From Chloroflexota bacterium (GTDB lineage: Bacteria > Chloroflexota > Anaerolineae > UBA1429), in NCBI GenBank assembly GCA_019873625.1, contig JAIOAW010000026.1, positions 1 to 34,068 on the forward strand: DNA of 34,068 nt. Direction: 5' to 3'. Position 1 is the stretch's first letter, and the number at the start of each line of letters is the position of its first letter. The translations under genes and the position numbers were made by a program. The notes under the pieces are model-generated. The model worked only from the letters and a program-made list of their open reading frames with translations. It was not told where the DNA came from and made no database searches. Below, piece by piece: positions 2,747-17,568 of this stretch.

Positions 2747-4831
2747 TCATGGCCCCCAATGCGGCCACTGTTCCAGCGCCGTGCTCGTCGTCAGGTTGAG
2801 GCGCTCGCCCGTTTGCGTATCGAGGCGGTAGATATCCCAGCCCTTGTCTCGGTTTGAGTACCATACCAGGTAGCGGCCCCAGGGTGCCCAGGCGGGGCCG
2901 TGGTCGTTGGCATAGGTATCTTGGCTGAGGTTGCGCAGGTTCGAGCCATCCGGCGCGGCGCTATAGATTTCCATATTGCCGTCGCGGTAACTCTCCCAAG
3001 TGATCTCGCCCTCTGGCGACCACGTGGGCGCCTGGTCGGTAGCGGGGTCGTTCGTAAAGCGCACCACGGCACCCGTGGCCAGTTCAAGGATGTAGATCTC
3101 GAGGTTGCCGTCCCGATCGGAGACGAAGGCCAGCCGCGAGCCATCGGGGGACCAAGCAGGGCTGTAATCGGCGGCGCTGTGGCGCGTCAACCGCTTCGGG
3201 TTTGAGCCGTCGGCGTTCATCACATAGAGTTCCCAGTTGCCGTCTCGATACGAGGCAAAGGCAATCTGTTTGCCATCGGGCGACCATGTCGGCGTCCAAT
3301 CTTCGGCGGCGTTCCGCGTGAGGTTCTGCTGATCGCTCCCGTCGGCGTTCATCACATACACCTCGCGGTTGCCATCCCGGTCGGAGACGAAGGCGATGCG
3401 GCGCCCATCGGGCGAGACGGCCGGCGCCGTATCGTTTGCCTCGTTGAAGGTCAGGCGCGTGGGGTCCGAACCATCCGCCCGCATATGGTAAATGGCCCAT
3501 TTATCCTGCGGCGTGGCCTTGGCGATGTACACGATGCTCCCCCCTAAGACACCCCGCTCCGGCGTGATCGAGGGCACGGGCGATGGGGAATTGCCCGTTG
3601 GGGCCTCTTCTGGCGTGGGGGTTGCCGTCCAGATAGTTTGCACTTCGCGAGAACGCCACACAAAGGCAATGGCCCCCACCAGGAAGACGGCGATGGCGCT
3701 CAGCACCACGCTCATCCAATCGACGCGTTGGCGCCGCCAGGGAGAGATGGCCCTTTGGCGGATGGGTTGAACCCCCGGCGCGCGGCGCACCACCGCGGCG
3801 AGGCTCTGGGTCTGCTTGATCCAGTGAAAGAATAGCCCATTGCGGATGCGAAAGGTCCGCCCTCCCAATTCCTCCAAAATGCCCCGCCTTTCAAGGCGAT
3901 CGAGCACCTCGTCGGCGGCCTCTTTGGAGAGGCGCACGTGGGCGCGCGCCAAGTGCAGCATCACATCCTCGGCGGTGCCCAGGCCCTGGTTGCCGATGCG
4001 TTCCGCAAATACGCAGAGCACCACGCGCTCCAGGGGGCTGGCCGCCTGCCAAAGCGTTTCGAACTCCGCCGAGGCCTCGGCGACGATTCTCTCTGCGGCG
4101 CGGTCTACATCCGGCAGGCTCACCCAACCGTGGCGCTCGCGGGCCTCAAAAAGGAGCCGCCCGAAATGCTGGACGAAAAGCGGCTCCCCGCCGGAGAGGA
4201 CGTGAATGCGCCGCACGGATTCGGGGTCAAAGTGGATCGTTCCCTCGGTGAGGAACATCAGGAGTTCGGAGGTATCGTCAAGGGAGAAGGGGCCGAGCAC
4301 CAGCGTGCGGCCGGGCAGCGCCCCTAGGGGCTGGGTCATCTCCTCCGGTTTGCCCTCCACGGCGATCAGGATGGCCAGCGAAGGCGCTTGCCGCAGGGCC
4401 TCTGCGAGCGCCTCCAGGGCGTGCGCCCCGTTCATCTCCCCCAGGCTGCGGATGGGCAAGGCGTCAAAACAAAAGAGGGCGATACGCCCTTCGGGCACAT
4501 CGCGCTGAAGCGCCCGGAACGCCTCGGCGAGGGGAAGGGAGGGCGCCTCTTGCCCTAGGGTAGAGGCCATCTCGCGCATCAAAGCCTGAGGAACGGATGC
4601 CCCGGGCACAGGGGCCTCGCCCCACAGGATGTGATACACCTCGTAGCGACTGCCGAGCCGCAAAGGGAGTTGGTTGAGGAAAGAAGTCTTTCCGATGCGG
4701 CGTTTGCCAAAGAGGAAGAACAGCCGCGCGCCTTCCAAAAGCCCCTCTTGTAGGCGCTCAAACAGGGCATCTCGGCCGTAAAAGGGATCCTCTTCGGTTA
4801 GGGGGCGATCCGTGATAAACGGGTTGCGCAA
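2747..4831 (-). CDS. single-pass membrane protein: P-loop ATPase fused to PD40/TolB-like beta-propeller
   Basis: The 694-residue product has three parts. Residues 1-350 form a P-loop NTPase: the NPFITDRP...FYGRD opening is typical of AAA_16-type ATPases, Walker A is GKRRIGKTS (42-50), a Walker B-like strand ends ALFCFD (118-122), and a winged-helix-like region follows at about 265-340. A basic stretch (350-370) precedes one transmembrane helix (about 372-392). A Pro/Thr-rich linker (400-428) then leads to five or six PD40/TolB-like blades (430-694) with repeated SPDG, FVSDRDGN and MNADGS motifs. By the positive-inside rule the ATPase is cytoplasmic and the propeller extracytoplasmic. The start is TTG (4829-4831): an in-frame stop lies 42 bases upstream, shared with the preceding gene, and GGAG lies about 11 bases before it. 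Function is unknown; signalling across the membrane is an inference. Confidence 0.8.
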   Translation of the reverse strand: MRNPFITDRPLTEEDPFYGRDALFERLQEGLLEGARLFFLFGKRRIGKTSFLNQLPLRLGSRYEVYHILWGEAPVPGASVPQALMREMASTLGQEAPSLPLAEAFRALQRDVPEGRIALFCFDALPIRSLGEMNGAHALEALAEALRQAPSLAILIAVEGKPEEMTQPLGALPGRTLVLGPFSLDDTSELLMFLTEGTIHFDPESVRRIHVLSGGEPLFVQHFGRLLFEARERHGWVSLPDVDRAAERIVAEASAEFETLWQAASPLERVVLCVFAERIGNQGLGTAEDVMLHLARAHVRLSKEAADEVLDRLERRGILEELGGRTFRIRNGLFFHWIKQTQSLAAVVRRAPGVQPIRQRAISPWRRQRVDWMSVVLSAIAVFLVGAIAFVWRSREVQTIWTATPTPEEAPTGNSPSPVPSITPERGVLGGSIVYIAKATPQDKWAIYHMRADGSDPTRLTFNEANDTAPAVSPDGRRIAFVSDRDGNREVYVMNADGSDQQNLTRNAAEDWTPTWSPDGKQIAFASYRDGNWELYVMNADGSNPKRLTRHSAADYSPAWSPDGSRLAFVSDRDGNLEIYILELATGAVVRFTNDPATDQAPTWSPEGEITWESYRDGNMEIYSAAPDGSNLRNLSQDTYANDHGPAWAPWGRYLVWYSNRDKGWDIYRLDTQTGERLNLTTSTALEQWPHWGP

Positions 4832-5622: not shown

Positions 5623-5651
5623 AGTATACCACGCCCTTAGGGGGGCGGCAA
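5623..5651 (-). promoter_or_regulatory. sigma-A promoter for the zinc-ribbon / ATPase-propeller pair
   Basis: On the minus strand a -35 TTGCCG (5646-5651) and a -10 TATACT (5623-5628) are 17 bases apart. Transcription would start near 5616, about 40 bases before the GTG start at 5575. The -35 box lies inside the last codons of the upstream glycosyltransferase gene. Confidence 0.65.
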
Positions 5652-7571
5652 CTCGATGACGCCGGCCAGGTGCACCTCGCCGAGGAGGAGTTTATCCTGC
5701 CCATCGGGCGTGGTGAGGCGCTGGCCGGTTTGCGGGTCATACAGGCCCACGTAGAGAAGAAGGGTGCTCGGCGCACCCTCCGGCAAAAAGAGGCCGTGAC
5801 GATCCAAAATGGTCTCGCCGGGTGCCCAAATGGTGGTGGGGGCGCGGCCTGCAGCGGGGATGCCGTCATGTTGGGCCACCAAGCGCCCCGCGCTATCTAG
5901 GGCGTGCACGAAGACGGCTAGGTTCCCTGAAATGGGCTGTTCGGCCTGCCACAGGAGGGCCAAGGTGACGGCCCCCCCTTGGGGGATATCGTCCGTCCAT
6001 ATGGCGCTTTCAAGGCGGATGTAGCCCAACGTTTGGCCAATGGGCGCCTGGCGCCAGGCGCCCTGGGGCGTGGCATAAGCGCGGTAGAGCGTATTCCCCT
6101 GCCATTCGCCGCCGGCGGGGTAAAAGGTGCCGTCGAGCCATTCCAGAAGGGGTGCGTTCGGGCCATAGTCCCCCATATGAAAGACGAACCAGAGGCGATG
6201 GTGCGTGCGCCCGTATGCCTCGAGGCGCGCGATGAGGCGATCCATCGGCTCGATGATCGGCTCCCAGCGCTGAGCGTAGAACCACGGTGCGTCTTGAGGG
6301 GAGCGCAAAGCCTCATACCACCCGGCCCGCGCCAACACGTTGAAAAAGACGAAATCTTGCGGCCCGGCGTGCTGGGCCAGGTAGCGGTAATCTTCCGTGG
6401 GGTCAAAAGGATCCGTAACCTCGAGCGTCTTTTCATAGACGAATCGCGTACTACTCGGCCAGTAAAAGAAGGCAAAGAGGACCAGGGCGATGGGCAACAG
6501 GATTTTGGCCCTTTGGGCCAAACGGTCCAACGCCCAGCCCACGGCAAGGCCGAATAGGGCGCTGGCCGGCACAAGGTGGCGGACGGCGAACCACAAGGTG
6601 CGCACGCTGTAGGCCACGCCGATGATGCTCCACCCCACGGCGAGGAAGGGCAGGAGCAGGCCCCTGGCCTCCGTGCGGCGCCATGGTCGGGCCGCCGCGC
6701 CCAAGAGGAGCACCCCGCCCAGGAGCCATTCCACGCCCGGCCGCGTGCCATACGCAAAGGCCAGCCCTCCCCAGCAGGCCTTGAGGAGGGAGAGCATCTC
6801 CAAAAGCGCGTTTTCGCCTCCGGGGCCGCTCCCCAGGCGCGCCGTGAGCGTGCCGTAGGCGTAAAAGAGCCAAGGGAGGTATAGAGCGAGCACGCCCAAC
6901 CCCACGAACATCAGCCGCTTCCAGCGGCGCGGGTAGGCCAAGAGGCCATAGGCCCACACCCCGGCCACGGCCCAGGCGGTGTGGTATAGCGTGTAAAGGC
7001 TCAATAGGGTGCTGAAAAGGAGCGCGGCCTCCCAGCGCCACGAGGGCGTGCGGAGACTGCGGATGAGGCACCATACGGTGAGGAGCACGGCGAGCGCCGA
7101 AAGGGCGTACATCCGCGCCACCTGCCCATAATAGACGAGGAGCGGCCACACGGCCGCGTAGGCGGCGGCCAAAATCGCCAAACGCGCGGGGTGTTTTGCC
7201 CCCCAGGAGATGGCCCATTCCCTGGCGGCGGCATAGGCCGTAGGGATGGCCAAAACGCCCCAAAAGGCCGAAAAGAGGCGGATGCCCCACCCCGTGATGC
7301 CCCCTTTGGGCAGGCCCACCAAAAGCCACAGTTTGAGGAGGGCCATATAGAGCGGGGGGTGGCGGTCTTCGGCGGCCACGCGCACGAGGTCTGCCCAGGG
7401 GAGGCTGGCATGGGCCAGGCTCCAACCCTCATCCCAACGCAACACCGGGCCGCCCAAGCGGTAAAGGCGCAGCGCAAACCCCAAGAGGGTCAGGGCGCCC
7501 ACCCACAGGGCGGGGAATTGCCCAAGGCTCCGGGCGCTCTCGATCAAGGGGCGGAATCTAACGCGGTTCAT
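5637..7571 (-). CDS. GT39/ArnT-like polytopic membrane glycosyltransferase
   Basis: With the ATG at 7571 the product is 644 residues. The N-terminal two thirds contain about ten hydrophobic segments. Two acidic motifs lie in the first extracytoplasmic loop: WDE at 46-48 and DRHPPLY at 69-75. This is the signature of the GT-C fold (GT39/PMT, ArnT-like), which transfers sugar from a polyprenyl-phosphate donor on the outer face of the membrane. The last 130 or so residues form a soluble beta-rich domain often seen on chloroflexotal members. An upstream in-frame ATG at 7634 exists, but the internal ATG follows a GAGG site and overlaps the maf stop by 14 bases, a typical coupled start. Acceptor and donor are unknown. 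Confidence 0.82.
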   Translation of the reverse strand: MNRVRFRPLIESARSLGQFPALWVGALTLLGFALRLYRLGGPVLRWDEGWSLAHASLPWADLVRVAAEDRHPPLYMALLKLWLLVGLPKGGITGWGIRLFSAFWGVLAIPTAYAAAREWAISWGAKHPARLAILAAAYAAVWPLLVYYGQVARMYALSALAVLLTVWCLIRSLRTPSWRWEAALLFSTLLSLYTLYHTAWAVAGVWAYGLLAYPRRWKRLMFVGLGVLALYLPWLFYAYGTLTARLGSGPGGENALLEMLSLLKACWGGLAFAYGTRPGVEWLLGGVLLLGAAARPWRRTEARGLLLPFLAVGWSIIGVAYSVRTLWFAVRHLVPASALFGLAVGWALDRLAQRAKILLPIALVLFAFFYWPSSTRFVYEKTLEVTDPFDPTEDYRYLAQHAGPQDFVFFNVLARAGWYEALRSPQDAPWFYAQRWEPIIEPMDRLIARLEAYGRTHHRLWFVFHMGDYGPNAPLLEWLDGTFYPAGGEWQGNTLYRAYATPQGAWRQAPIGQTLGYIRLESAIWTDDIPQGGAVTLALLWQAEQPISGNLAVFVHALDSAGRLVAQHDGIPAAGRAPTTIWAPGETILDRHGLFLPEGAPSTLLLYVGLYDPQTGQRLTTPDGQDKLLLGEVHLAGVIELPPP

Positions 7572-8253
7572 CGCACCCTCGCACCTGGGCAAGCCACCCG
7601 CCATGCAGGATTTCGCCCGCCCATTCGCACCCACTGTGTTCTACCGCCCAGGGGCAGGCCTCAAGGGGGTGGCGCGGTGGAGATATCCCCCAGCCTTGGA
7701 GAGCGCAGTATAGGTGGCATAGAGGCAGGCCCACCACGTTCGCATAGCAACCCTCCAGCCGTTCCACAGGCGCGAACCCCTCGTGCTGCACGGCATACCC
7801 CCCGGCCTTATCGAGGGGGTCGCCGGTGGCCACATAGCGCTGAATCTCCTCATCGCGATAAGGGCGCATCCAAACGGGCGTTTCGGCCACCCAGGCTCCC
7901 TGGCGGTGGGCCAAGGCCCACCACAGGGCAAACCCCGAATCCACCAGGTGGCGGCGCCCTCGCAGGCGTTCCAGCATAGATACGGCCTCTTGGGGGGAAC
8001 CGGGCTTGCCGAGGATCTCCCCCTCGAGGACGACGAGGGTATCCGCCGCGATGATGAGGGCCTCCGGAAATTGTTCGGCCACTTTGCGCGCCTTGGCGCA
8101 GGCCAGGCGAAGCGCGAGGGCGCGCGGGTCCGCTGAGGGCGAGAATGACTCATCCACGTCGGCGGGGGCGATGTGGAACGTCAAACCAAGGGCGGCCAAA
8201 AGTTGGCGTCGCCTTGGCGAGGCCGAGGCTAATACAAGATACGTGTGTGCCAT
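7558..8253 (-). CDS. maf: Maf-family nucleoside triphosphate pyrophosphatase with Cys-rich tail
   Basis: Starting at ATG 8253 (GGAG 6 bases upstream) the protein is 231 residues. The Maf signature is clear: SASPRRRQLL (10-19), VDES (33-36) and the catalytic-site AADT with D71. The family hydrolyses non-canonical or bulk NTPs such as dTTP/UTP to monophosphates and can affect septation. The final 63 residues carry six cysteines (169, 179, 183, 200, 209, 227), beyond the usual Maf core; metal binding there is possible but unproven. The longer open frame to 8364 would cross the promoter region and is rejected. The gene is followed, with a 14-base overlap, by the GT39-like gene. Confidence 0.88.
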   Translation of the reverse strand: MAHTYLVLASASPRRRQLLAALGLTFHIAPADVDESFSPSADPRALALRLACAKARKVAEQFPEALIIAADTLVVLEGEILGKPGSPQEAVSMLERLRGRRHLVDSGFALWWALAHRQGAWVAETPVWMRPYRDEEIQRYVATGDPLDKAGGYAVQHEGFAPVERLEGCYANVVGLPLCHLYCALQGWGISPPRHPLEACPWAVEHSGCEWAGEILHGGWLAQVRGCDEPR

Positions 8254-8455: not shown

Positions 8456-9415
8456 ATGATGCTTACCGGTAGCGGCCTGGATTTCGAGACCTCTTCGTTT
8501 CTACTGCCCAGCCTGTATCAAGCCTTTTGGTACCACGTGGCGCAAGAGCGCTTTTCGGGGATTTTGGCCAAGGCCGAACGAATCCCTTTTGATACGCATT
8601 CGCGCCTCGTCTTTTTCTCCGATCTCCATCGGGGAGACGCCGGCCGCGCCGATGCCTTTGTGCGCAACCGCGCTATCTTCCTTGGCGCCCTGGAGTACTA
8701 CTGGGAGCGCGGGTTCACCTACATCGAGGTGGGCGATGGCGATGAGTTGTGGAAGAATTCCTCGTTCCTAGAGGTTCGCCGCGCCCACGGCGCCGTGTTC
8801 GACACACTCCATCGCTTTCACGAGGCAGGGCGATTGCGCCTCCTCGGCGGGAACCACGACGGCATCCCCTCTGGCGGCCGAGATGGCCTCCCGGTGAGCG
8901 AAGCGCTGCTCCTCCAATTCCGCGAGACGGAACAAGAGGTCATCGTCCTCCATGGCCACCAGGCCGATTTCAAGAACGACCGCCTTCAGCCCGCCCTGCA
9001 ATGGTTTGCCCGCCACATCTGGCGGCACCTGCAAGATCACGGCCTGCGCAACACCCTGCCCGACGTGGAAGATCTCCCGGCAGCGCGGCGCATCGTGCGC
9101 GGCGTGGCGCATTTGGCCATGGCCAACCAGGGCGCCATCGAGAATCGGCTGAAAGCGCTCGCTCAAAATCTTGGGCGGGCCATCATCTGTGGCCACACCC
9201 ATCGCCCCGCCTTTGCCCCAGAGGGCGGCGTGCCCTATTTCAACTCGGGGAGCGGCATCCAGCCCGGCTACATTACGGGCCTGGAGATTGCCCAAGGGCA
9301 AATCGCGCTCATCCGCTGGAAAGAACCCTCTATGGGTGCAGCCGGTCAGCGCGAGGTGCTCGCCGCGCCCCGGCCGCTTGCCCTCTTTGCCCCGCGCGCC
9401 CCGGCCTGGGCCTAA
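8456..9415 (+). CDS. calcineurin-like metallophosphoesterase
   Basis: The 319-residue product shows the metallophosphoesterase motif series in order: FFSDLHRGD (D56, H58), VGDGDELW (G93-D94), GGNHDG (132-136), a VLHGHQAD block and ICGHTHRP near the C-terminus. These residues bind the two-metal centre of phosphodiesterases such as LpxH-like and UDP-sugar hydrolases. The D-E-L-W after the second motif is close to the LpxH/YbbF group, but the true substrate is unknown. No signal peptide is present. Two adjacent ATGs (8456, 8459) are the likely starts; the ribosome site is weak. The stop overlaps the stop of the convergent lipoprotein gene by 4 bases, leaving no room for a terminator. Confidence 0.8.
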   Translation: MMLTGSGLDFETSSFLLPSLYQAFWYHVAQERFSGILAKAERIPFDTHSRLVFFSDLHRGDAGRADAFVRNRAIFLGALEYYWERGFTYIEVGDGDELWKNSSFLEVRRAHGAVFDTLHRFHEAGRLRLLGGNHDGIPSGGRDGLPVSEALLLQFRETEQEVIVLHGHQADFKNDRLQPALQWFARHIWRHLQDHGLRNTLPDVEDLPAARRIVRGVAHLAMANQGAIENRLKALAQNLGRAIICGHTHRPAFAPEGGVPYFNSGSGIQPGYITGLEIAQGQIALIRWKEPSMGAAGQREVLAAPRPLALFAPRAPAWA

Positions 9416-10677
9416 CGCCCCGCGAGCGCCCGCTGGAGGTCCTCGCGGCTCCTCAAGCGCGAGGCCCGTTGCATAAACTCGGCCAGCGAGGCGCTTTGGG
9501 CGCGCAGGGCGCGCATCTCCTCGCCGATGGGGTCCACGGAGGTGGGGGCATCCGCATAGGTGCCGTGAAAGGCAAAGTAGGCCTGGTTCAGCCGCCGGAT
9601 AAAGTACCCCTCTTCCAAGAGTTGCTGTCGGCGGGCCTCCATATAGGCCTCGGCCTCCTCAATCTCCCCAGCGGCCAAAAGGCGATCCACCTCCAAACGG
9701 GTTTCGCGCATAAAGCGGTTATAGTCAAAGGCCGGCTCCCCAAGGGCGGGTGGGGCCGTGCCCTCCGGCCTAGGTGCCAACTCGGGATAGTACCTCTGCA
9801 GGATTTCGTCGCGCAGTTCCTTGGCCACGATGCCGGCCGCCGTCTCGTTCAGGCGGGCGATCTCGTAATCTCGGCGCAGGCCCAATAGGTGCAGCACGTA
9901 GCGGAAGCCGAGCGGCGTAAAGGCGAAATATTGGTGCGCCCACTCCTCGCAGATCGTCTCCAGCGTGCCGCGTGGCGACCCGGATTCCACGACGAGGCTG
10001 GGGAAGGTACCGCCGAACCCGCCAATCTCTTCGACGAGGGCCGAAACGCCCCGAGGCGCCCACGGGGCCTCGAGGCGCTCTACGGCGCGTTCGAGGGCCT
10101 CGATGTGCGCGAGCGAAAGGTCGCTCACGAGCAGGGCTTGCCGCGCGCTCTCGATGCGGTCTCGCGGGGAGACGATGAGCGTATAGGGGGCCTCGGTGAG
10201 GACGAACCGCACCGGCGGGAAGAGGATTCGCCCCGGCCAAAGGCCCCAGGGGTTTGCGGCGCCTTCGGCCCGTAGGACCTCCTCGACTTGCCCCGCCAAG
10301 ATGCCCTGCACCCGAGGGCGAAGGGCATCGTAGCGCTTGCGAAGGGCCTCCAGGTCATATTCCTCGCAATGGGGGCAGGTGATGCGTTCCGCGCCGCGCT
10401 GCGAGGCAATCATCTGCTCCTGCTCGCGCACGGCCTGGGCCAAGGCGAAATACAACCGCACCGCGTTCGCCCCTTCCGAGAGGTCTTCTCGCGGGTAAGC
10501 CCTGAAGGCTTGAGGGAGGTGGGCGACTTCCCACTGGAGGAGGCGAAAACGGTACGGGGCGATGAGGCGCCCCAGGTGCGCATCGAAGGTCGCCCTGGGC
10601 GCACAGCCTATGAGCGCGGCGAACAAGGCCCCGGCCGCAAGCAGGATGGTCGCTCTTCTCGCCCACCCGCGGATCAT
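9412..10677 (-). CDS. gluzincin-like lipoprotein with altered HExxH motif
   Basis: From ATG 10677 the product has 421 residues. It starts with a basic, hydrophobic signal and a lipobox ending LIGC (C25), so it should be anchored on the outer face of the cytoplasmic membrane. Residues 244-248 read EEWAH where zinc metallopeptidases have HExxH, and about 30 residues later comes LNET (276-279), which fits the third-ligand Glu helix. A C-P-H-C pair is at 101-104. The arrangement resembles predicted aminopeptidase lipoproteins, but the first metal-binding His is Glu here. A purine-rich GGGGGAGG lies directly before the ATG, unusually close. Longer open frames upstream run into the divergent gene and are rejected. 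Activity is uncertain. Confidence 0.65.
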   Translation of the reverse strand: MIRGWARRATILLAAGALFAALIGCAPRATFDAHLGRLIAPYRFRLLQWEVAHLPQAFRAYPREDLSEGANAVRLYFALAQAVREQEQMIASQRGAERITCPHCEEYDLEALRKRYDALRPRVQGILAGQVEEVLRAEGAANPWGLWPGRILFPPVRFVLTEAPYTLIVSPRDRIESARQALLVSDLSLAHIEALERAVERLEAPWAPRGVSALVEEIGGFGGTFPSLVVESGSPRGTLETICEEWAHQYFAFTPLGFRYVLHLLGLRRDYEIARLNETAAGIVAKELRDEILQRYYPELAPRPEGTAPPALGEPAFDYNRFMRETRLEVDRLLAAGEIEEAEAYMEARRQQLLEEGYFIRRLNQAYFAFHGTYADAPTSVDPIGEEMRALRAQSASLAEFMQRASRLRSREDLQRALAGR

Positions 10678-10704
10678 ACCTCCCCCCACGCATGCGTTAG
10701 GGCG

Positions 10705-10734
10705 ATTATAACCCATCGCTTGCCCTTGCGGTAA
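10705..10734 (-). promoter_or_regulatory. candidate promoter for the 10677 lipoprotein gene
   Basis: A minus-strand TATAAT (10705-10710) is a perfect -10 box. The matching -35 is weak (TTACCG, 10729-10734, 18-base spacer). Transcription would start close to 10698, about 20 bases before the ATG. Confidence 0.45.
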
Positions 10735-10754
10735 CGGGGCGTTCGGGTTATCCT
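10726..10754 (+). promoter_or_regulatory. candidate promoter for the iron alcohol dehydrogenase gene
   Basis: TTGCGG (10726-10731) and TATCCT (10749-10754) are 17 bases apart, giving a start near 10761. The -35 box overlaps the -35 of the divergent promoter. Each box has only moderate agreement with consensus. Confidence 0.35.
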
Positions 10755-10795
10755 TGGCCCCCGAGGGGCGTTGCATCTTTGCAAGGAGGATGCCG

Positions 10796-11950
10796 ATGTT
10801 TATGGAGATTACGCGGTTTCGCTGTGCCCAGGTGGTCCATTTTGGGCCAGGCGCCGTAGCCCGCCTGGGCGATGAGATTGGCCGCTTGGGCGCCGAGAGG
10901 GCCGCGCTCCTCACGGACCCCGGCGTGCGCGCGGCGGGGCTGGTGGAGCAGGTCCTGAAGAATATCCCTGTGCCGGTGGAGGTCTTTGCCGAAGTGGAAC
11001 CGGAGCCGCCTTACCCCTTGGTGATGCGGGCGACGGCGTTCATCAAGGCCTGTGGTGCCCAGGTGGTCATCGGCCTGGGGGGCGGCAGTTCGATGGACGT
11101 GGCCAAGATGTCCGCCGCGATGACGGCCAACCCCGGCACCGTGGCGGATTACTGGGGGGTGGATCGCCTCCCACGCCGTGGCTTGCCGGTGATCGCCATC
11201 CCTACCACGGCGGGCACGAGCAGCGAAATCTCGCCGGCCGCCGTCTTTATAGACCCCGAAAGCCGCACCAAGCGCGGCGTCAATTCCAGCCACCTGCTCC
11301 CGATGGTTGCCATTCTGGACCCCGAGTTGACCTTGGGCTTGCCGCCCCATCTGACGGCCTCCACGGGGATGGATGCGCTTACCCATGCCATCGAGGCCTA
11401 CACCTCGCCCCGCGCTTCGCTCCTCACCGAGGGGACGGCCGAACGGGGCATTCAACTCATCGGTCAGTTCTTGCGGCGCGCCTATGCCCGCGGGCAAGAC
11501 CTGGAGGCGCGCACGGGGATGTTCGCCGGCTGCTTTTTCGCCGGGATGGCCCTGGCGGAGGTAAACGTCGGCGCGGTGCACGGCCTGGCACAAGCCTTGG
11601 GCGGATGCTTCCCCGTGGGGCACGGGCTAGCGAATGCCCTCTTTTTGCCCTATGTGATGGCCTTCAACCGCATCGCCTGCCGAGAAAAGTATGCCCGCGT
11701 GGCCGCGCTACTAGGCGAACCCATCGAGGGCTTCTCGCTTGATGAGGCCTCCGCAATGGGTGTGGAGGCCGTGCGCCGCCTCACGCAGGATTTGGCCATT
11801 CCTCAGCGGTTGCGCGATATCGGCGTGCCCCGAGAGTTGCTCGATGCGGTGGCCCAAAGTTGTATGGAGAGCCAACAGCGCGTCTTGGGGAACAATCCCC
11901 GCGCGGTAACCTTGGCACAGGCCCGCGCCATTTTGGAGGAGGCCTGGTGA
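10796..11950 (+). CDS. iron-containing alcohol dehydrogenase
   Basis: The 384-residue length is standard for group III (iron-dependent) alcohol dehydrogenases. GLGGGSSMD (93-101) is the nucleotide-binding loop and PTTAGTSSE (136-144) the second cofactor motif. The four metal ligands are visible: D193 and H197 in GMDALTHAIE, H262 in GAVHGLA and H276 in PVGHGLANA. The enzyme interconverts alcohols and aldehydes or ketones with NAD(P); the substrate cannot be told from sequence and could be butanol, propanediol, lactaldehyde or another. The ATG at 10796 is 6 bases after AAGGAGG (10783-10789); the ATG at 10790 touches the site and is less likely. It is convergent with the alkyltransferase gene across only four bases. 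Confidence 0.92.
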   Translation: MFMEITRFRCAQVVHFGPGAVARLGDEIGRLGAERAALLTDPGVRAAGLVEQVLKNIPVPVEVFAEVEPEPPYPLVMRATAFIKACGAQVVIGLGGGSSMDVAKMSAAMTANPGTVADYWGVDRLPRRGLPVIAIPTTAGTSSEISPAAVFIDPESRTKRGVNSSHLLPMVAILDPELTLGLPPHLTASTGMDALTHAIEAYTSPRASLLTEGTAERGIQLIGQFLRRAYARGQDLEARTGMFAGCFFAGMALAEVNVGAVHGLAQALGGCFPVGHGLANALFLPYVMAFNRIACREKYARVAALLGEPIEGFSLDEASAMGVEAVRRLTQDLAIPQRLRDIGVPRELLDAVAQSCMESQQRVLGNNPRAVTLAQARAILEEAW

Positions 11951-16812: not shown

Positions 16813-16842
16813 TTGACATCTCCGTTCCGCGCCATCTACAAT
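16813..16842 (+). promoter_or_regulatory. strong sigma-A promoter for the two-repeat lipoprotein
   Basis: A perfect -35 TTGACA (16813-16818), an 18-base spacer and a -10 TACAAT (16837-16842) are present. Transcription would start near 16849, giving a leader of about 65 bases. This is the closest match to consensus in the window. Confidence 0.8.
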
Positions 16843-16914
16843 TGGGCTATGCATCCCAAAGGGCAGGCAAAGGGCGGCGCATCGCATAGAACGTAGCCTC
16901 CGAAGGAGGATACT

Positions 16915-17568
16915 ATGGAGCGGTTAGCAAGAGGAATCGGCCTCATCGTGTTGGCGGCGCTCTTGGGGGGGTGCCTGGTCCAACCTGGCGCGCCTTCGAC
17001 GCGCCTTTCTTACACGTTGCCGACGACCTTGACGGTTAAAGCAGGGCAAGCCTTGGCGGGCACGGATATCATCTACCAAAAGATGGAGGGGGATAACGCC
17101 CGCGTGCTCATCAAGGGTCAGCCGGCCACTAAACGGAAAGGCGATTCGGTGGATTGGAAGGGTTCCCCTATGAGCGGCGTGGCGGTGGATATGCGCCTGC
17201 GCGTGGTGTGGTACACCGAGGAGGAGTTGCGCCTGGCGGGCACCGTGAAGGTCTCGGTGGACGAGGTAGACCCCAAGGCGGGCACCCTTCGCACGACCTC
17301 GCCCTTACACTTTACAGGGCCGGTGGCCTATGGCGTGGCCAAGGGCGCGAGGATTCCCGGCACCACGCTCTATTACGAGGGGCAAACCGAGGAGGGCGCT
17401 CAGTTGGGCGGCCTGGGCGAGTACCCCTTCCGCAAGATGGGCGATTCCATCCTCTGGGAGGGGCAGTTGCGCCCGGGCGTGTACATTCGCCTCGATGTGC
17501 GCGCCGTGCAGTTTGATGACCGCAGCCTGCGCGTGGCCGGCCTGGTGAACCTTTGGCTGGGCGAGTGA
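16915..17568 (+). CDS. lipoprotein made of two homologous repeats
   Basis: The 217-residue product begins with a short basic signal and a hydrophobic stretch ending in the lipobox LGGC (C20), so it is lipid-anchored outside the membrane. The rest is an internal duplication. Residues 43-55 align with 143-155, 73-83 with 172-183, and 92-115 with 192-215, an offset of about 100. Shared elements are an A/P-G-T strand, a GDS-(VDW/ILW)-x-G motif and a final strand pair ending in L-R-(L/V)-AG. Both halves look all-beta. I know no family for it. AAGGAGG (16903-16909) is 5 bases before the ATG. It lies between the sugar-kinase operon and a GH51 gene, so sugar binding is a guess only. Confidence 0.75.
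   Translation: MERLARGIGLIVLAALLGGCLVQPGAPSTRLSYTLPTTLTVKAGQALAGTDIIYQKMEGDNARVLIKGQPATKRKGDSVDWKGSPMSGVAVDMRLRVVWYTEEELRLAGTVKVSVDEVDPKAGTLRTTSPLHFTGPVAYGVAKGARIPGTTLYYEGQTEEGAQLGGLGEYPFRKMGDSILWEGQLRPGVYIRLDVRAVQFDDRSLRVAGLVNLWLGE

Follow-up and report, generated by a model that had tools for sequence, protein, structure and literature searches.

The window, by which we mean the whole 34,068-nucleotide stretch of DNA that was analysed, contains on its forward strand an open reading frame of 217 amino acids that runs from ATG to TGA, at the position given by an earlier sequence-only reading (Table 1). The encoded protein begins with a hydrophobic signal followed by the lipobox LGGC, whose cysteine is residue 20. 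A divergent TIM-barrel gene precedes the lipoprotein gene and an alpha-L-arabinofuranosidase gene follows it. Elsewhere in the window, two reverse-strand frames of 665 and 500 amino acids (5637–7634 and 9412–10914) had no Pfam match at 0.001, and another on the same strand (2747–4831) combines a PD40 beta-propeller with an AAA_16 ATPase-like part that is weak and under its cut-off. No structured RNA or tRNA was found in the window at the thresholds of the tools used.

Table 1. Features of the lipoprotein locus; positions are counted from the first letter of the window.
Feature	Position	Strand	Basis
Promoter-like site TTGACA-18-TACAAT	16813–16842	+	11/12; top-scoring of 12 sites in the window
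Ribosome-binding site AAGGAGG	16903–16909	+	Direct reading; 5 bases 5' of the ATG
Lipoprotein gene, 217 aa	16915–17568	+	Match at E < 1e-12 in 48/100 genomes, its own included
Signal peptide and lipobox LGGC (Cys20)	16915–16974	+	Sequence; Cys20 in 30/30 aligned members
Beta domain 1, residues 31–118	17005–17268	+	Profile match to domain 2; predicted strands E31–42 to E104–115
GDS motif of domain 1, residues 76–78	17140–17148	+	G76 54/58, D77 58/58, S78 56/58
Beta domain 2, residues 128–217	17296–17565	+	Predicted strands E131–142 to E204–215; modelled alone, pLDDT 96.3
EYPFRK loop (family consensus GYPYRK), domain 2 only	17419–17436	+	Y170 51/58, P171 53/58, R173 50/58
GDS motif of domain 2, residues 176–178	17440–17448	+	G176 37/58 (Ala in 17), D177 57/58, S178 58/58

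The product of this gene is a real protein that family databases do not name. It gave no match in Pfam (E up to 1), NCBIfam (E up to 10) or PHROGs (E up to 1), Pfam searches with 30 members and 60 halves returned stray matches only, and the open-access literature that was searched names no such family. The earlier proposal of an undescribed family is borne out by these searches, and a match to a well known repeat family, the result that was said to speak against it, did not occur, as none passed its cut-off for members or halves.

Relatives are widespread within the class. Beyond the genomes counted in Table 1, loosening the threshold to E up to 1 brings the tally to 61 of 100, which includes chance matches. 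A search of the class matched 140 of 396 genomes at E up to 0.01; 138 are credible, counting partial copies in two genomes (G518 and G076), and two others (G664 and G735; E 0.005–0.006, internal stop) look like chance and were rejected as members. The gene is single-copy in the listed genomes, except in G677, which has a second match at a contig edge. Six of 400 genomes of the phylum matched, all of them from the window's class, Anaerolineae, and a half profile run over 400 phylum genomes, probably the same sample, returned the same six; neither search found a member outside the class, and none was found among viral contigs, plasmids and phages. A scan of 84,980 species genomes gave one match, but as a single-protein query that reaches close relatives only, it does not truly exclude other phyla. 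The family is thus wide in its class and, in what was searched, found only there. Within the taxonomic family of the window, the gene is missing from 4 of 15 genomes (G001, G002, G006 and G008), three of which are 95% complete or more (G008 99%, G001 97%), and on this basis it is dispensable.

The lipoprotein identity proposed from the sequence was supported by the lipobox and by the invariance of Cys20 in all aligned members. A scripted lipobox pattern fits 50 of 58 members, and six more show a cysteine at the same place by eye. Two proteins from a single genus (L064 and L065, from G082 and G051) lack a lipobox and instead have a hydrophobic, membrane-spanning-like segment ahead of domain 1, and therefore anchoring seems to be kept by other means in these two. 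The linker between the cysteine and domain 1 ranges from 6 to 67 amino acids in the 50 members measured and is rich in proline and threonine in some, as expected of a spacer. In six members of one family (L081, L082 and L095–L098), linkers of 59–67 residues are rich in leucine, proline and aspartate (LPDL-like). The protein is probably anchored on the cell surface.

Beyond the anchor, the protein had been proposed to consist of an internal duplication of about 100 residues, with blocks at a constant offset. Self-alignment after residue 20 (BLOSUM62, best split) gave 29 identities in 96 positions and a score of 113, whereas 1000 shuffles averaged 27.0 (sd 4.5) and reached 52 at most. Profiles made separately for the C half (A3) and the N half (A4), both from one alignment of 30 members (A1), matched each other at 99.7% with an E of 2.9e-27 over 87 columns. 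The shuffles and the profile match rule out that the halves are alike by chance and, together with the predicted strands, which are all displaced by about 100 residues from one half to the other, they uphold both parts of the proposal.

The duplication is ancient, and all members seen retain it. A tree built from 116 halves places N and C halves on opposite sides of a single branch of length 0.89, with support of 100/99 and recovery in all 200 bootstrap trees; the bootstrap was not fully settled, and with few columns many inner forks are weak. Because the halves separate only once at this support, a recent duplication was rejected, and if the root lies on the branch between them, the duplication would predate the divergence of the families sampled. 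Exactly two repeats are present in all 58 distinct members collected from fetched loci, and the half profile matched 101 of 249 class genomes, 98 of them twice. Of the three single matches, the one in G518 is a copy cut short in a frame of 82 aa, a truncation not explained by a run of N; those in G018 and G563 are weak and resemble a DUF11-type repeat and a chance hit. G076 also has a partial copy, as does G677 in its second match at the contig edge. The suggested search for single- or multi-repeat relatives therefore returned two-repeat members and a few truncated or weak single matches only. No single-domain ancestor is in reach, and the fold searches described below give no clear relative either. 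The pair is a clean case of one ancient duplication whose halves took different loops.

AlphaFold2, run on the whole protein with a 30-row alignment (pLDDT 91.1, pTM 0.81), predicted the same run of main strands in both halves, shifted by 100 residues, or by 101 for one strand (31–42/131–142, 52–58/153–158, 78–86/178–186, 89–100/189–200 and 104–115/204–215). The same strands were obtained when the C half was modelled alone with 60 halves as the alignment. Each half is thus predicted to be an all-beta domain of about 90 residues, as the sequence-only reading had supposed, and the two are predicted to be alike rather than to fold differently, which was the other result that would have spoken against it. 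Foldseek found no match at E 0.001 or better in the PDB, with the whole or the half model, or among viral models. All Z values from VIA-align, for which a Z below 8 may reflect merely a common arrangement, fell in the range of no clear match; the top match of the half model was SecB (Z 4.4, rmsd 5.2, 54 aligned). The absence of a clear fold match is no proof of a new fold. Of the earlier suggestion that the domain may be of an undescribed type, the part that stands is that no named family matches it, and a new fold is neither supported nor disproved by the fold searches.

Both copies share a motif consisting of DS..W.G, then an arginine, then a glycine. D77/D177, S78/S178, G83/G183, R96/R196 and G109/G209 are each present in 56–58 of 58 members, W81 in 47 and W181 in 56. 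This motif is read as the structural core: the register of the strands would bring D177, R196 and G209 next to one another. Other conserved positions belong to one half. Y170, P171 and R173 are conserved in the C half only, where domain 2 has its own GYPYRK loop before the GDS, and at the same place domain 1 has a lysine-rich loop, the loops being placed from strand positions rather than from model coordinates. In the N half, A71 is found in 50 of 58 members and K73 in 43 (arginine in 14).

The gene had also been said to have the best promoter in the window, and this holds, as the site in Table 1 is the only one of the window's 12 sites to reach 11/12; shuffling leads one to expect about 6.7 sites in all (3.0 + 1.6 + 2.1). 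Sites of 10–11/12 were found upstream of all 11 same-family members tested, the window's own included, and for each of these 0 or 1 of 200 shuffles was as good. Overall, 15 of 29 members have a site of 10/12 or more, and outside the window's family 4 of 18 members score 10 or more; the test covered 29 of 30 members, one being left out for upstream DNA that was too short, and the start codons of relatives were chosen by a script rule. By its conservation within the family, the promoter is real, and it is absent or different in most of the other members tested. The high expression expected from it is a different matter. The conserved promoter argues for steady transcription, but the codon score of 0.723 is unremarkable among the 15 window genes compared (itself included; 0.674–0.771), against a rough reference of 11 ORFs from one ribosomal region, some likely miscalled, that themselves score 0.542–0.786. 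Codon bias is uninformative here, and high expression is neither shown nor excluded by it.

Gene neighbours recur only within families. Among 42 loci compared, in 8 of which the gene caller missed the lipoprotein, no neighbour recurred across the class, and a conserved operon was rejected at that level. Downstream of the gene, six genomes of the window's family have S1, Clp-type and RadA-like genes, as identified by Pfam for L068 only and by sequence cluster for the others, with RadA being a name read from domains; this is not so at the window. In several loci of family f38, one gene without an assigned family recurs downstream. In family f36 (L083, L094, L099 and L100), the gene follows, on the same strand and at 4/4 loci, one for a DsbA-like and cyclophilin-type folding factor (domains assigned by Pfam on L083 only), so that in this family the protein may be linked to protein folding. 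Changing neighbours say little on function. Because none recurs across the class, a stand-alone protein fits better than an operon-coded subunit of a machine.

We suggest, tentatively, that the gene encodes a single-copy exported lipoprotein with an ancient pair of beta domains, and that this protein is made constitutively, is tethered to the membrane and serves the envelope in binding or as a scaffold. This is a plausible best guess rather than a result: the gene, its anchor motif, the duplication, the family membership and the within-family conservation of the promoter are observed and the folds are predicted, but the location, the binding, the ligand and the scaffold role are inferred. The lipid anchor would hold one end of the protein in the cytoplasmic membrane, with the two beta domains outside the membrane. 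The pair would go back to a single tandem duplication that preceded the divergence of the sampled families of the class, and would have been kept since. The protein, made constitutively, would act as an envelope scaffold or tether, and its two domains may bind a component of the wall or surface layer through basic or aromatic loops.

A broader possibility, which we consider doubtful, is that the protein represents a new beta-domain family, possibly with a new fold, that is a general envelope tether of the class and grips the wall or an outer surface layer. Were this true, the lipid end would sit in the membrane and the domains on the wall or surface of cells without a classical outer membrane. 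According to an extract of one source, Chloroflexota stain Gram-negative and are considered monoderm, some having layers of unknown make-up (PMC13319060). SLH domains were found in 0 of 100 genomes, so no co-occurrence with them was seen. The envelope of Anaerolineae is poorly understood, and a single-copy lipoprotein carried by roughly one in three of the class genomes searched (138 of 396) provides a concrete handle on it.

Each half could instead be a strongly diverged DUF11-type Ig-like repeat, cut to two copies on a lipid anchor. DUF11 matches were found in 37 of 41 genomes, with 37 matches in the window's own, and a weak half-profile match (E 0.003) falls inside a 1638-aa ORF that also bears a DUF11 match. 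When compared by hhalign with a set of 99 DUF11 repeats from relatives, collected via an iterated profile search from 19 seeds of which L161 covers a wrong stretch and L164 is shifted, the family scored 20.8 (A2) or 20.6 (116 halves). The best decoys scored 17.0 when the columns of the halves were shuffled and 15.4 when those of DUF11 were (60 shuffles each), and the best of 118 real windows compared with the halves came only slightly below the family, at 18.8. However, the hhalign match has a probability of 15% over 27 columns, about 1% when global and 2.5–4% with the N halves alone, and Pfam detected no DUF11 in 60 halves (E up to 1) or 30 whole members (E up to 0.1). The top PDB rows for the half model, SecB and SlyD, are not Ig-like, and the short turn between strands 178–186 and 189–200 would form a hairpin, unlike the E–F crossing of an Ig domain. 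A DUF11 origin is thus improbable. In the window's genome, the DUF11 matches that were listed (G000:C15, C13 and C41) lie in ORFs of 3305, 2987 and 942 amino acids, and such long ORFs are possibly adhesins.

We give similarly little credence to a substrate-binding or sensing lipoprotein, or to a relative of the periplasmic domain of CcsBA/ResB, the cytochrome c synthase. Structurally, the two-domain model is matched best by CcsBA (7s9y), with a Z of 6.9, an rmsd of 3.0 and 72 aligned residues at 17% identity, but this Z lies within the range of no clear match, and no CcsBA appears among the best 50 half-model matches listed. ResB had no match in the window's genome (E up to 0.001) and is found in 24 of 48 genomes with the lipoprotein as compared to 27 of 52 without it (Fisher p 1.0), and no neighbour cluster recurs across the class.

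The least probable reading takes each half as a distant PilP or GspC homology-region beta domain, and the protein as an adaptor for a machine of the type IV pilus, Tad or archaellum-like kind. At E up to 1, five of 30 members match TIGR03021 (pilP_fam), the best with an E of 4.4e-6 and 27.7 bits, yet the four matches viewed singly (L021, L023, L024 and L030) stay below the 34.65-bit cut-off and span 17–41 of 119 positions, and the window protein itself has no match at E up to 10. PilP (2lc4) ranks second among the structural matches to the two-domain model (Z 4.5, rmsd 3.7, 60 aligned), again at a Z that, by the tool's own note, may signify just a common arrangement, and it too is absent among the best 50 half-model matches listed. 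Single sequences of GspC and HofP from E. coli K-12 reached hhalign probabilities of 0.2–0.6%. Of the 48 genomes that have the lipoprotein, 12 have PilN, and of the 52 that lack the lipoprotein, 6 do (Fisher p 0.12), so that 36 of the 48 do without PilN. No pilus genes were found among the 18 window ORFs given to Pfam (up to 24.4 kb) or among 9 scanned neighbours of relatives. The likenesses to TIGR03021, which stays under its cut-off, and to DUF11, which does not reach significance, are faint, and neither is counted as membership.

Considered against these known systems, the protein that we tentatively place in the envelope as a tether has partial resemblances to each. It is likened to the periplasmic domain of CcsBA by its best structural match, and differs from it in having no sequence match in PDB searches and in not being co-inherited with ResB. 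With DUF11 it has in common a W.G.L..G...L...V motif, a similar repeat length and an abundance of that repeat in the same genomes; DUF11 repeats form long arrays, whereas here there are two copies, with DS and R motifs of their own and no match at the level of Pfam. It departs from PilP in its partial, sub-cut-off match (27.7 of 34.65 bits), in its two copies and in having no clear co-occurrence with PilN. The likeness to PilP and GspC lies in a small all-beta domain and in a TIGR03021-matched stretch of the V..G..IPGT..V..I....G..L...G type, a pattern that we take to be that of GspC and PilP. According to the extract cited above (PMC13319060), PilP is itself a lipoprotein.
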